A program made the position numbers and the translations under genes. From assembly GCF_003614185.1 (NCBI RefSeq), contig NZ_KZ987724.1, positions 135,512 through 199,511 on the forward strand: a stretch of DNA of 64,000 nucleotides. Direction: 5' to 3'. The notes beneath the pieces were generated by a model, which had not been told where the DNA came from, did not search any database, and saw only the letters and a program-made list of their open reading frames with translations. Shown here one piece after another: positions 20,998 to 55,172 of the stretch (positions are counted from its first letter, which is position 1; the number at the start of each line of letters is the position of its first letter). The DNA is from Paenibacillus aceti. GTDB taxonomy: Bacteria; Bacillota; Bacilli; Paenibacillales; Paenibacillaceae.

Positions 20998-21468
20998 GGG
21001 GCCGTCCAATAAGCCTCTAAAATAAAAAGTTGGGCGGAGAAACGTCATGTTTTCTGTCCAACTTTTTTTGTGGGCCAAAGCCACAATCCCCAAACTCCGT
21101 ATTTTTTCGCGTCGGCTTCGATCCTTGTACCATCTATTAAGCTTGCGTGGCGCAAGAGACAAACACGGACGGTCAGGACACTCCGCTGATCTAGCGGTCA
21201 CAAATGTCCGTTAGAGCCTGAAAACGACCACTACCCACCTCTAACGGACACTTTTGACCCTTAGAAGCACAAAATGCCATTTTTCACGAAAACTTCCCTT
21301 GTAATGGACATTATTGTCCGTTACAAGGGCGGAATGCCACAGAATCAACGCTAACGGACATTTATATCCGTGTCCGAGTGATCTGGCCAGAACAGGGGGA
21401 TGTTCACATCTTTAGGCACGCAAAAGAGGCGTCTTTCAAGTCGGAAGAACGACTTTTGAGACAGCCCC
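20998..21468 (+). mobile_element. MITE-like element, copy 1, carrying a four-palindrome array
   Basis: The left end GGGGCCGTCCAATAAG and the right end CTTTTGAGACAGCCCC are imperfect inverted repeats. Internally there is a terminator-like hairpin (AAAAGTTGG ... CCAACTTTTTTT) and four 22-nt units, TAACGGACA...TGTCCGTTA-like, beginning at 21192, 21242, 21302 and 21352. A second copy occurs at 47608-48037. The element has no ORF, so it would need a transposase in trans. The flanks ACAA/TTGT extend the outer palindrome and are followed by T-rich sequence, as if it had inserted in a terminator stem. The outer ends resemble IS1182-type termini from memory; this is unverified. Confidence 0.7.
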
Positions 21469-25419: not shown

Positions 25420-25499
25420 AGGGTATATTGTGTTCATTCTCCTTTTCACCTATAATCCAATAGAGAAGATAGCCTTGCTTCAAGCTAATTAAATTTAAT

Positions 25500-25705
25500 G
25501 CTCGTTGGTCCTGAGTCGGTGCGATTAGCGCCATGCGCTCGGGTGAAAAGGGAAGCCGGTGTGAATCCGGCGCGGTCCCGCCACTGTAACAGGGACGAAG
25601 TCCAAATGCCACTGTCCACAGGCATCCGCCTGCGGGATGGGAAGGCGGGCTTCAAGTCGATTCCCCTGTAAGCCAGGAGACCTGCCGCGAGTAGATGAGA
25701 CGGTC
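25500..25705 (+). ncRNA. Cobalamin (AdoCbl) riboswitch
   Basis: Conserved segments of the B12 aptamer are visible: AAGCCGGTGTGAATCCGGC (about 25552-25572), GCCACTG (25580-25586), and the B12 box AGCCAGGAGACCTGCC (25671-25686). Position upstream of btuFCD and the cob genes fits the family, which represses B12 uptake when the cofactor is abundant. The exact 5' boundary is approximate. Confidence 0.95.
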
Positions 25706-29176: not shown

Positions 29177-29392
29177 CAGGATATGAGCGTCAAGAGCATC
29201 AAGAGCATCAAGAGTGCCAAGGGGCGGAACAAGTGTGAGTAATTGGTATGGCTGGTCATGGCGAGTAAACACGATTAGGCCTGCAAAATACTGCGACAAA
29301 TGTGTTACGGCGGCGTGTAAACCTAGCATAAGTGCTAACGACCCTTGGGGAGCATACTACGTGCGGCGTGCACAGGCATGAACATTTGAAAA

Positions 29393-29570
29393 CTGCAAAT
29401 ATGCAGGTTTTTCAGCTCGAAATGCCCTGTTGATAGGAAATTCCTGCAAATATGCAGGCTTTTTGACCTTTTTGATTGGAATCGAGCTACTTTGGAGAAA
29501 AAAGCTGCATTTTCGCAGGAATTCACTCTCACGGATGAAATATTGGCAAAATTCCTGCATAATCGCAGGC
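29393..29570 (+). repeat. Four-palindrome intergenic element, TGCAGG family (copy 1)
   Basis: Four near-palindromes of type CCTGCAAATATGCAGG, flanked by A/T runs, have CTGC starts at 29393, 29444, 29505 and 29555, i.e. spacing 51, 61, 50 nt. The same family with identical spacing occurs at 43465-43642, and a half copy at 53358-53424. No ORF. It lies between btuD and cobT. Confidence 0.75.
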
Positions 29571-29681
29571 TTTTATCGGGAATGGCCTTAGTGTGTTGCT
29601 TATTCCCACCCATTACCCACATTTGCAGGTTCTGTTGGCATATGGAGCAAACTTCGGTGATGAAGAACAACGATTTACTTT

Positions 29682-29863
29682 TAACGAAACTACAGAGCGC
29701 TATTTACTCAAAAACAGGACTATTTGAATCTAACGAAACACCATATCGCTATTTGAGCTAAATCGAGGCTTTAAACGACTATTGGGGTCCAATAGCGTTA
29801 CCCTGTTTCGTTACAATGTGCAGAGGCACTTTTTGGCGCGAATAGCGTTACCACGTTTCGTCA
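29682..29863 (+). repeat. Four-unit intergenic element, TAACGAAAC family
   Basis: Units TAACGAAAC-N7-CGCTATT start at 29682 and 29731. Reverse-oriented units AATAGCG-N7-GTTTCGTTA start at 29791 and 29841. Spacing is 49, 60, 50 nt, and the whole element is therefore an inverted repeat centred on CTATTGGGGTCCAATAG. The sequence is unlike the TGCAGG family but the layout is the same. It ends about 50 nt before cobT. Confidence 0.75.
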
Positions 29864-29913
29864 GAGTCAAGTTCGTTAGAGTCAGATAGGCAGCAGGAAG
29901 AAAGGGGATCGAA

Positions 29914-30993
29914 ATGAATCAGTCAATAGAGCAAATCATCAGCGGGATCGCGGTTCCGGATCAAGCAGCCTCGGCGGCTGCAGCAGAGCATTTGGACAAG
30001 CTAACCAAGCCTCCGGGCAGTCTTGGCAAGTTGGAGAGCCTGGCCGTGAAGCTGGCGGGAATTACCGGGGAGAAATGTCCCGATGTATCCAAGCGCTCGG
30101 TCATCGTGATGGCTGCGGATCATGGCGTATGCGAAGAAGGAATCAGTGCTTTTCCGGCGGAGGTTACGCCGCAGATGGTACATAATTTCCTCGCTGGGGG
30201 AGCGGCGGTCAATGTGCTGGCTCGCCATGCCGGAGCTGAGGTGCTATGTGTCGATGTCGGCGTGAATGCCGAGCTATCGCACCCGGATCTGGTCATGAAG
30301 AAGGTGCGTTATGGTACGGCGAATATGGCCAAAGGACCGGCGATGAGCCGTCAGGAAGCAGAAGCGGCGCTGCTGGCGGGAGTTGAGACGGTGGAAGCGG
30401 CGATCGCACGTGGTTCGAGATTATTCGTTACTGGAGAGATGGGCATCGGCAATACGACGGCCAGCGCAGCCGTGATGAGCGCGCTCTCTGGCAGATCCGT
30501 GCAGGAATGCGTAGGTCGCGGAACAGGCCTGGACGATGAGCGGCTGCAGCATAAAATCTCGGTAGTGCAGCGCGCGCTCGAGGTTAACCAGCCGGATGCC
30601 GATGATCCGCTGGATGTTCTGTCCAAGGTGGGCGGGCTTGAAATCGCCGGCTTGGCCGGGGTGATTCTCGCGGCTGCGGCGCATCATTGTCCGGTCGTGA
30701 TCGACGGATTTATCTCCAGTGCAGCCGCCCTGGTTGCGCAGAGGCTCGCGCCGAATGCGGCGCATTATATGATCGCCTCGCACGCTTCGCATGAGCAGGG
30801 CCATGAGCAGTTACTTGGCGAGCTAGGGCTCACGCCGATGCTGCATTTGGATATGCGGCTCGGCGAAGGCACGGGCGGCGTGCTGGCGCTGCATATGATC
30901 GATGCGATCGGCCATGTCATGGCCGAGATGGCGACATTTGAGAGCGCCGGGGTGTCTACAGCTGAGCCCGCCGAGCCTGAGGTAACCGCATGA
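29914..30993 (+). CDS. cobT: Nicotinate-nucleotide--dimethylbenzimidazole phosphoribosyltransferase
   Basis: A 359-residue protein starting at ATG 29914 after GAAAGGGGATCGAA. N-terminal DKLTKPPGSLGKLE and C-terminal LGEGTGG (catalytic Glu near residue 317) are CobT signatures, as are GEMGIGNTTA and GRGTGLDD. It makes alpha-ribazole-5'-phosphate for the lower loop of cobalamin. First of four cob genes; it overlaps cobU by 4 bp. Confidence 0.95.
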   Translation: MNQSIEQIISGIAVPDQAASAAAAEHLDKLTKPPGSLGKLESLAVKLAGITGEKCPDVSKRSVIVMAADHGVCEEGISAFPAEVTPQMVHNFLAGGAAVNVLARHAGAEVLCVDVGVNAELSHPDLVMKKVRYGTANMAKGPAMSRQEAEAALLAGVETVEAAIARGSRLFVTGEMGIGNTTASAAVMSALSGRSVQECVGRGTGLDDERLQHKISVVQRALEVNQPDADDPLDVLSKVGGLEIAGLAGVILAAAAHHCPVVIDGFISSAAALVAQRLAPNAAHYMIASHASHEQGHEQLLGELGLTPMLHLDMRLGEGTGGVLALHMIDAIGHVMAEMATFESAGVSTAEPAEPEVTA

Positions 30994-34042: not shown

Positions 34043-34071
34043 TTGACAAGCGCTTTCATTTGTTATACGAT
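34043..34071 (+). promoter_or_regulatory. Promoter of the c-di-AMP riboswitch transcript
   Basis: TTGACA (34043-34048), 17 nt, TACGAT (34066-34071); a TATAAT five bases further on has a 22-nt spacing. The spacer starts AGCGCTTTCA, the right half of a cre box, but the TG of the left half is missing, so CcpA control is only possible. Confidence 0.5.
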
Positions 34072-34079
34072 ATAATTAC

Positions 34080-34207
34080 GCTTAATTTTCGATTGGTAAA
34101 GTCGAAAAGCGGGGGAACCATTTTTTGGGGCGAATCGTTATGTTTTTGCGTAGGGAACCATCTTTCCCGAGTCCGTCAGCTAACCTCGTTTGCAGTGGAT
34201 GGGTCAT
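34080..34207 (+). ncRNA. ydaO/yuaA-type (cyclic di-AMP) riboswitch aptamer
   Basis: Conserved blocks of the ydaO motif appear in order: GCGGGGGAACCA (34109-34120), TTGGGGCGAATCG (34125-34137), TAGGGAACCATC (34151-34162), then CCGAGTCCGTCAGC and TAACCTCG (34167-34188). A helix TTTTCGA/TCGAAAA precedes the core. In characterised cases c-di-AMP binding turns expression off. The assignment is by recognition of these blocks. Confidence 0.85.
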
Positions 34208-34258
34208 ATTTTTTATAATGGTTCACCATGACCCTGTTACGGGTCTTTTTTGTTTTTT
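34201..34258 (+). terminator. Expression platform of the ydaO riboswitch
   Basis: GACCC (34230-34234) and GGGTC (34241-34245) flank TGTTAC and are followed by TTTTTTGTTTTTTT, an intrinsic terminator. GGGTCAT (34201-34207), at the end of the aptamer, can instead pair with ATGACCC (34228-34234). The two pairings exclude each other, as expected of a terminator/antiterminator switch. Confidence 0.8.
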
Positions 34259-43329: not shown

Positions 43330-43464
43330 GGGATCATCCTCCTGAAATTTGAGTAATGTGTTTGAGTAATGTGATGGAATGGATCGGATTGGATTGGTTA
43401 GGCGCATCTATATACGTACTGGTAGTGGGAGTTCCCTCGCCGCTTGAATCACAGAGGGAAATTC

Positions 43465-43642
43465 CTGCAAAAGTGCATCTTTTTCAGCATACTAATGCCC
43501 TGTGGCGGGAAAAGCCTGCGAAAATGCATCCTTTTTCTCCGTAGAAGCCGGATTTGACGAAAATCGGCCTAAAAGCCTGCATTATTGCAGGAATTTTGTA
43601 AAAACAGATGATTTCGCTTGAAAAGCCTGCATATTTGCATCT
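43465..43642. repeat. Four-palindrome intergenic element, TGCAGG family (copy 2)
   Basis: CTGC starts at 43465, 43516, 43577 and 43627, spacing 51, 61, 50 nt, identical to the element at 29393. Intervening sequence is partly conserved (AATGCCCTG at corresponding positions). It lies in the 481-nt gap between queE and queF, which has no gene. Confidence 0.75.
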
Positions 43643-43714
43643 TTTTTTAAATTCTCGGGCGAATCCTGGAGCGCGCTAGGTCGGCACCGACTCGGCACCA
43701 GCTCACAGCTTACC

Positions 43715-43803
43715 ACCGCCGTGGCACTGACTGAGACTGACGCAGCACTTAGCTAATTACCGCCGTGGCACCGACTTACCACCCACTCACCACCGCCGTG
43801 GCA
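43715..43803. repeat. Three short direct repeats (ACCGCCGTGGCA)
   Basis: The 12-mer ACCGCCGTGGCA occurs at 43715, 43759 and 43792 in the same orientation, just downstream of queE, embedded in CACCGACTC/ACCAGCTC-type low-complexity sequence. Function unknown; possibly expanded simple sequence. Confidence 0.5.
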
Positions 43804-45806: not shown

Positions 45807-45899
45807 GTTCTTGAACTGCGTTACAAAAAACAAGCCCATGCAAAATCAAAGGCAGGGCGCCATTAGTTTTTTATAGAGGGAGTTCGCGAACCTCTCTCA
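45807..45899 (-). ncRNA. preQ1-I riboswitch, transcription-terminating type
   Basis: On the minus strand, AGAGAGGTTCGCGAACTCCC then TCTATAAAAAACTAA (45899-45863) matches the preQ1-I consensus closely. It is followed by a GCCCTGC ... GCATGGGC stem and TTGTTTTTTG (about 45852-45824), the likely terminator. It lies upstream of queC, so preQ1 would shut off its own synthesis genes. Confidence 0.9.
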
Positions 45900-46087
45900 T
45901 GCGATGCTGCATGAACTTCTTCGTATTATTTTAGGATACCCCGTCATTATAGCATATTTGTCTAAGTGAGGAACGTGATAAACTATGGAATCCAGTCTAT
46001 GACACGCAAAATTCGAAAATCTATTTACAATTGAGATTGATATGCAACATAATGGAATATATTAGCCAGGAAGGGGAAGCGAAGATA

Positions 46088-47607: not shown

Positions 47608-48037
47608 GGGGCTGTCTAATAAGCCTCTAAAATAAAAAGTTGGGCGGAAAAACATCATGTTTTCCGTCCAACTTTTTTTGTAGGGCCAAAGCCACAATCC
47701 CAAACTCCGTATTTATTCGCGCAAGAGACAAGCACGGACGGTCAGGACTCTCCCCTGATCTAGCGGTCAAAAATGTCCGTTAGAGCATGAAAACAACCAC
47801 TTTGCTCCTCTAACGGACACTTTTGACCCTTAGAAGCACAAAATGCCATTTTTCGCGACAATTTCTCTTGTAACGGACATTATTGTCCGTTACAAGGGCG
47901 GGATGCTACAGAATCAGCGCTAACGGACATTGATGTCCGTGTCCAAGTGATCCGGCCAGAACAGAGGAATGTTCCCATTTTGGGACACGCTAAAGAGGCG
48001 TCTTTCAAGTCGGAAGATCGACTTTTGAGACAGCCCC
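47608..48037 (+). mobile_element. MITE-like element, copy 2, carrying a four-palindrome array
   Basis: Left end GGGGCTGTCTAATAAG and right end CTTTTGAGACAGCCCC share a perfect 10-bp inverted terminus. Internal TAACGGACA-type units begin at 47761, 47811, 47871 and 47921 (50/60/50). An internal hairpin AAAAAGTTGG...CCAACTTTTT (47635-47677) ends in a T-run. Flanks GAAC/GTTT extend the outer palindrome and the right flank is followed by TTTTTTTATTTT, as if it had inserted within the terminator of the lipoprotein gene. About 40 bp shorter than copy 1; no ORF. Confidence 0.75.
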
Positions 48038-53349: not shown

Positions 53350-53430
53350 AAAAAAGCCTGCAATTCTGCAGGCATGCTCTAAGAAATGATGATTTCGTGG
53401 GCAAAAGCCTGCATATTTGCAGGCTTGACA
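53350..53430 (+). repeat. Half element of the TGCAGG four-palindrome family
   Basis: Two palindromes (CCTGCAATTCTGCAGG and CCTGCATATTTGCAGG; CTGC starts 53358 and 53409, 51 nt apart) with the shared spacer word ATGATTTCG match the second half of the element at 43465. The rest of the 640-nt gap between PadR (53099) and 53740 shows no gene. Confidence 0.7.
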
Positions 53431-53739
53431 AAACCTCTGCTGCTTTTACTTCCTATATCCGCGCATCCCGGCCTAAAGGTCCTTTTTTAAATAGTAGTGT
53501 GTATACCCGCCAGCATTTTCGATAGTTCCATATTCCTTCGTGCCCCTCTCAAGTTAGCAGTTCGTTTAATCTGATCCTTACCGTTTTAGTTACTTACACT
53601 TCCACCACTTCCACAATCGCCTTCAAATCCCTAAAAGATATTTCCTCCATAAATTAATAATTTGATGGCTAAAAACTCCGGACTAATGATATAGTTAGAT
53701 CGTAACCCAATATATCATGTAAAAGAGAGGGACCGAGCG

Positions 53740-54987: not shown

Positions 54988-55172
54988 TAGTTGTAAAAAT
55001 ACACTTATTCTGGACAATTAGCTTGAAACTCAGAAAATAGATGCAAATATACAGTTATTTCCTTACTAAAGCTCAAATGGAAGAAAAACTCATGCGAATA
55101 GTTGCATAATTGCAGTTATATCCACGGTCTCGGCCATAAAGGAGGAATTTAGTTGCATTTGAGCACTTATAT
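54988..55172. repeat. Four-unit intergenic element, TAGTTGCA family
   Basis: Units of about 22 nt (TAGTTGCATAATTGCAGTTA-like) start at 54988, 55038, 55099 and 55150, spacing 50, 61, 51, the mirror of the TGCAGG family spacing. Inner sequences resemble that family when read on the opposite strand. No gene is seen in the 837-nt gap 54946-55782. Confidence 0.7.

Follow-up and report, generated by a model that had tools for sequence, protein, structure and literature searches.

Among described DNA sites, those bound by RemA come closest to the A/T wave of the elements reported here. RemA assembles into an 8- or 16-mer ring that is proposed to wrap DNA; its sites are AT-rich 7-bp protections 3 bp apart, and at epsA and tapA of B. 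subtilis AT-rich patches recur every 10 bp over at least 100 bp with little sequence conservation (PMC8481266). The elements share this arrangement in having AT-rich segments at 10-bp intervals. LrpC reportedly wraps DNA in a right-handed sense, and we know of no four-site genomic element at 50/60/50 bp for Lrp or LrpC. A further likeness to Lrp/LrpC is that of an octamer of four dimers, for which nucleosome-like binding has been proposed (as cited in PMC8481266). The RemA sites differ, firstly, in lying upstream of promoters, whereas the elements, as judged by gap orientation, favor convergent gaps and avoid divergent ones, and secondly, in that the portion of PMC8481266 at hand describes neither coded units nor dyad arrays.

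High-copy intergenic palindromes of family-specific sequence are also known as REP, BIME and REPIN, with BIME-2 acting as strong gyrase sites (PMC6379681); the elements differ from these by their four directional units at 50/60/50 and by the 10-bp A/T wave, and the GTAG or CGTC end tag of REP/REPIN is absent from the unit consensus CTAACG...CG(C/T)TATT, which represents the TAACG families only. A RAYT-driven REP/REPIN system was rejected, since no RAYT was seen among the PF01797 matches of G000, one of four genomes of the genus in which family B is numerous (G000, G011, G031, and G032). These 14 matches have one score and one length (157 aa), as a multicopy IS200-type TnpA would, and lie at 14 places of the genome, probably as recent copies.

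Taken from its sequence, the element looks like a sequence-coded DNA-wrapping site, unmatched to described kinds. The initial annotation knew of no described class with these properties. In a search of open-licence PMC text, confined to the papers listed where many matched, no description of the element was found, nor a protein or function named for it.

Geometry and address code of the elements

The window, by which we mean the whole 64-kb stretch analysed, belongs to a genome of 5.6 Mb, and in it six four-unit elements and one half element were recovered where the initial annotation had placed them; a strand (+) is given for the family B element, the others being listed unstranded. The family A element at 29391–29571 (CCTGCAnnnnTGCAGG units, TGCAGG type) has unit starts at 29392/29443/29504/29554, re-measured as 51/61/50, and the family B element at 29681–29865 (TAACGAAAC...CGCTATT) has two units at 29682/29731 and two reversed units at ~29791 and ~29841, giving 49/60/50 and the order ++ --, so that the annotated reading of units 1–2 as forward and 3–4 as reversed was confirmed. 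A second family A element lies at 43463–43645 (starts 43465/43516/43577/43627, 51/61/50), and short tandem-like repeats (gccgtggcaccgac...) adjoin it at 43660–43800. The two family C cores, of the TAACGGACA type, lie at 21191–21375 and 47759–47943; the latter starts its units at 47764/47814/47874/47924 (50/60/50), the former, at 21192, is likewise 50/60/50, with ATGGACA as its unit 3, and both are the cores of a longer repeat of ~320 bp (about 21143–21468 and about 47719–48037), present at no fewer than 38 places of 234–346 nt plus shorter pieces (best 40 of 49 candidates). At 54988–55170 the four units of the family D element (TAGTTGCA type) were found in place, its 50/61/51 spacing being that of the initial annotation. 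The half copy announced for 53358 is indeed there, as two family A units at 53357/53408, 51 nt apart (53357–53432). The re-measured spacings thus uphold the four units at a fixed distance of ~50/60/50. The window also carries Cobalamin, c-di-AMP, and PreQ1 riboswitches above their Rfam gathering scores, at 25488–25703, 34069–34209, and 45857–45900 (-).

At the level of the genome, direct-pair distances over 464 kb (the window and 20 evenly spaced 20-kb stretches) exceeded chance, peaking at 50 (32 pairs) and 51 (22 pairs), against a mean of 0.19 per distance and a maximum of 3 in the shuffled control. A search by spacing instead of by sequence, as the annotation had advised, with a threshold of 85, returned 31 elements scoring 88–124, above the maximum of 73 in 12 shuffled stretches and the 76–85 reached by simple or GC-rich real sequence of relatives; by extrapolation, the genome would hold ~375 copies. 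The same sample contains a second set of repeat distances (66–68, 133–135, and 199–203 nt), for which the elements do not account. In random samples of five relatives the direct-pair histograms show no 50/60/50 signal; the elements there are sparser or their units more diverged, and other scans are needed for them. When units were paired across loci L001–L248 and the window, with duplicates removed, the same-strand distance was 50 in 184 pairs, 49 in 10 and 51 in 10, and the opposite-strand distances were 110 (165 pairs), 60 (88), and 160 (73).

The element measures ~184 bp, with four directional sites of about 23–25 bp in the order ++ --, that is, with inverted halves. In the TAACG superfamily the directional unit, of about 25 nt, reads CTAACG-code-N-CG(C/T)TATTT; its 4-base code (unit positions 6–9, beside TAACG) varies among families and agrees inside each element: code identity is 0.876 within elements and 0.453 between them (230 elements), and position 6 is identical in all four units in 219 of the 230. 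The concerted change of the four units that had been suspected is in this way supported. The accompanying claim, that unit sequences are unrelated between families, holds in part only, since the profiles of A (TGCAGG) and D (TAGTTGCA) cross-match, and the units of B and C both begin CTAACG. Other unit families with the geometry kept are A and D in this genome and TAAATGGATTT in G037 and G038.

Variations on this plan exist. Longer arrays with extra units in steps of 48–50 nt are found at L164 (+++---), L161 (++---), and also L198, and whole elements are tandemly amplified at L142 (660–1374, G038), L178, and L198 (G032), as 3 copies at 264 nt, 4 at 303–362 nt, and 4 at about 244 nt. A further flanking repeat (...GAGGAGCGGAGCGTACGTAGTTTGTAC...) adjoins elements at L160 and L162 (G011) and L179 (G031).

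The A/T wave and conservation in place

Across 193 geometry-scored elements, A/T content is maximal at 0, 10, 20, 40, 50, 60, 70, and 90 bp from the dyad, and the wave is weaker at 30 and 80 bp, near the unit centres. The cosine at 10.1 bp, computed on spacers only, is positive in 192 of the 193 elements and in 119 of the 193 flanks, and among 87 further elements (taken from 80 of at least 120 named-genome loci, some of them from GM2 and D2_2 and overlapping the earlier genomes) it is positive in all 87, with 53 of 84 flanks; the flanks thus also lean weakly to positive values. Families A, B, C, D, and F each show a period of 10.0–10.1 bp with A/T maximal at the dyad (F from 8 copies), and for A, B, and D the permutation p is < 1/2000, both for the whole element and for the spacers only, the spacers of family B alone peaking at 11.75 with 10.0 nearly equal. 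Beyond the common ~10-bp component, the family profiles differ in detail (A–B r = 0.22, B–F r = 0.04, at zero shift).

The exact period deserves some caution. The full-length amplitude is 0.226 at 10.05 and -0.001 at 10.75, with the outer spacers giving -0.160 at 10.75, and a full-length period of 10.05–10.10 comes partly from the 50/60/50 lattice, because it is computed over the full length. Single spacers leave the period unfixed, the central one being best at 10.55 (10.75 almost as good) and the outer ones at 10.1–12, so that the handedness of a wrap is not fixed by the period.

As the elements within a family are not independent, a comparison of orthologues weighs more than element counts. 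Pairs were formed only from loci at which both genomes carry an element, and a filter removed those whose units differed by more than 35% or had fewer than 80 sites aligned. Of 69 flank-matched pairs this filter took out 36, two of them with both flanks matched, both pairing a family A copy with a tandem array of family B, and left 33, from which the 10 with both flanks matched were kept; 20 one-flank pairs were dropped (several joined only by other flanking repeats), as were two identical pairs taken as one genome twice (L222, L221) and the near-identical L236/L237. In the 10 pairs, the units changed at 0.064 substitutions per site (64/1000), a rate that is valid for same-family pairs given the pair choice and the unit filter, the spacers at 0.187 (159/852), and the flanks at 0.270 (305/1131), a conservative comparison since some flanks extend into genes; indels numbered 1 in units, 3 in spacers, and 34 in flanks (Fisher tests: spacers against flanks p = 5.5e-6, units against spacers p = 5e-16).

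The wave itself is conserved in these pairs. The A/T class was lost at 0.099 of the wave sites, 0.311 of the flank sites, and 0.336 of the other spacer sites; exchange of A for T reached 0.074 at wave sites, 0.071 in flanks, and 0.029 at other spacer sites, and the test of class change against A/T exchange at wave positions gives p = 5.7e-4. Over all spacer sites the share of WW/SS substitutions is not raised (0.23 vs 0.25, p = 0.73), and the slower rate of wave sites relative to the remaining spacer sites is marginal (p = 0.086). The initial annotation had proposed that the layout itself is selected, as it would be for a DNA-binding protein acting as a multimer, and this is supported: units and spacer lengths are kept while flanks gain indels, and the conserved wave would add to it.

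Distribution and genomic placement

Many Paenibacillus-type genomes contain the elements, up to hundreds per genome. The CTAACG…CG(C/T)TATT type at exact anchors, a pattern blind to families A, D, and F and to copies whose anchor has changed, occurs in 153 of 395 genomes of the family, in 16 of its 19 genera, the reversed pattern giving a single match, in one genome, over the same 395. In an order sample that overlaps the family set the exact pattern is present in 147 of 393 genomes and 33 of 49 genera, and in a class sample in 9 of 161 genomes; outside the order 2 of 148 genomes match, namely G558 (16 matches) and G648 (1). In the scan of named genomes, all taxa among the matches listed (80 of at least 120 stretches) are Paenibacillaceae: Paenibacillus, Cohnella, Saccharibacillus, Fontibacillus, and two MAGs so named. 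The family B element of the window has no match in the plasmids and phages searched; viral contigs contain the exact pattern in 4 stretches. Low-copy genomes were examined for a hint of a cognate gene by nucleotide BLAST of 21 loci, which have nothing in common beyond the matches within two sets of clearly orthologous loci and a single short match.

The elements are not placed evenly. In this genome, 26 of them lie in 11 convergent, 12 tandem, and 3 divergent gaps (5 more lie outside ORF-free gaps, the ORFs being called by length only), where all 105 gaps of at least 230 nt, element gaps included, divide into 14, 69, and 22. At the named loci among the matches listed, the 57 element gaps are 27 convergent, 24 tandem, and 6 divergent, and the 221 element-free gaps of at least 60 nt are 38, 126, and 57, respectively, which gives a convergent excess of p = 6e-6 and a divergent deficit of p = 0.013. 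The avoidance of divergent gaps could arise from insertion tolerance alone. Among 20 Pfam-scanned proteins adjoining some elements the types were varied, with no common function.

Copies come or go. In the window an element lies in the gap that follows an ABC-transporter gene and precedes the cobT-type gene, and in the three nearest relatives by cobT (G011, G031, and G032) this gap lacks any four-unit element, which implies such turnover; G031 retains one unit-like scrap there. Other copies are orthologous between genomes. Upstream of cobT, different species carry different unit families (L142, L144, L145, L146, and L129), and at two more gaps a pair of species differs in unit family (L182/L068, L122/L056).

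Competing explanations and a probable wrapped DNA platform

The reading that we judge probable, though by no means assured, is that the element is a ~184-bp DNA platform on which a dyad-symmetric nucleoprotein particle would be wrapped. The sequences show four directional sites at 50/60/50 bp, with a 4-base code common to the sites of one element, and a ~10-bp A/T wave that runs along the spacers and peaks at the dyad; the elements are enriched in convergent gaps, and purifying selection acts in place on their sites, their spacer length and the A/T class of wave positions.

The alternative that survives best, unlikely as we hold it to be, is that of miniature non-autonomous transposons, whose end units would be the sites of an absent or trans-acting transposase, the 60-bp centre being two ends joined. 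The dyad symmetry with two directional sites per half, the lineage-specific copies, as in the cobT-type gap described above, the few hundred copies estimated for this genome, and a code per family that fits family-specific transposases are all in keeping with it. It is opposed by the retention in place of units, spacer length, and A/T class in orthologues; by the unit clusters of the examined loci, in which no pair of half elements around a gene was seen; and by the flanks of 105 elements, where there is no consistent excess of equal k-mers and hence no consistent target-site duplication (best z 3.2, at k = 2, 14 vs 6.8, of 324 length/offset combinations). To our knowledge, moreover, an A/T wave is not a recognised requirement of transposase ends. 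Bacterial MITEs are 100–200 bp long. Those such as Bcr1, RUP, NEMIS, and ERIC are inverted-repeat, non-coding and often adjoin genes (PMC3733652), and the elements share their terminal inverted repeats, since units 1 and 4 are inverted and terminal, but differ in having no consistent target duplication and in the selection in place on spacing and A/T class. Within the unit clusters of the examined loci no related autonomous transposon was seen. The mobile or recombination substrate envisaged in the initial annotation could be a means of spread, given the relatives without an element in the cobT-type gap, but mobility may account for spread only, and by itself leaves the conservation in place unexplained.

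Strong gyrase sites, like the BIME-2 of E. coli, at which gyrase would wrap phased DNA and remove the positive supercoils between convergent genes, are in our estimation distinctly improbable. The gyrase motif combines phased G/C content with symmetry and a position downstream of genes (PMC6379681), the elements are enriched in convergent gaps, and for the central spacer on its own a period of 10.75 bp fits nearly as well as the best one. But the motif published there is 130 bp long, with a separate centre and wings of 10.75 bp, whereas the wave of the element crosses the dyad, and the amplitudes at 10.75 bp given above are practically nil over the full length and negative in the outer spacers; four coded units would also be left unexplained. 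Bidirectional protein roadblocks for RNA polymerase or replication, with the ++ -- units as polar blocks facing both ways, suit the directional units in opposite halves and the convergent-gap placement; they have no need of the A/T wave, they sit badly with the 24 tandem gaps among the 57 at the named loci, and we consider them very improbable.

A structured RNA of four hairpins or one long hairpin, which the initial annotation had entertained, can scarcely be credited: the fold z values of -4.0 and -4.4 for the two elements at 29391–29865 are what any inverted repeat would give, and the units of family A do resemble bidirectional terminators, but in the orthologous pairs the covariation that it had asked for is all but absent, with 14 one-sided and 0 two-sided changes in the unit arms and, for the dyad-mirror hairpin, 90 one-sided changes breaking and 32 keeping the pairing and two-sided changes keeping it once and breaking it 9 times, and Rfam gives no match at gathering score at the elements (7 sub-threshold matches in 29200–29920), which rules out its families. 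The dyad, the coded units, the fixed spacing and the phased A/T together argue for a function at the level of DNA, not of RNA. Among other identities considered, a CRISPR array does not fit, because the halves are inverted and the spacers have a common composition pattern, in place of one-directional repeats with unrelated spacers, and Myb/RsfA-bound sites were rejected because PF13921 has no match at E <= 0.001 in G000, G011, G031, and G032.

In the wrapped platform that we favor, putative sequence-specific proteins, probably several paralogues of different specificity, would bind the four sites, and the DNA between them would wrap on a protein core by way of its AT-rich minor grooves. The best candidate for this core, and a tentative one, would be RemA. 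It is encoded in 41 of 41 genomes of the genus, though its presence also in those without a match to the exact pattern counts against it, and its domain core is identical in the 30 genus copies translated (L393–L422), a histone-like constancy. At the 3′ ends of genes the particle might insulate neighbours, either by stopping the read-through that arrives from both directions or by retaining the supercoils that transcription drives; this role, the weakest step of the proposal, we regard as conceivable but doubtful.

If all this were so, which seems to us a rather long way from likely, the elements would be a bacterial counterpart of positioned nucleosomes, with hundreds of dyad-symmetric wrapping particles per chromosome at the ends of genes, a nearly invariant RemA core, and lineage-specific DNA-reading proteins changing together with their sites. 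What the order Paenibacillales possesses, in 33 of its 49 sampled genera, is a widespread and abundant class of intergenic DNA of exact architecture, selected in place, and since its address code, its spacing rule and its A/T-wave rule can each be broken separately, the intergenic coding of bacterial DNA-wrapping particles becomes testable.
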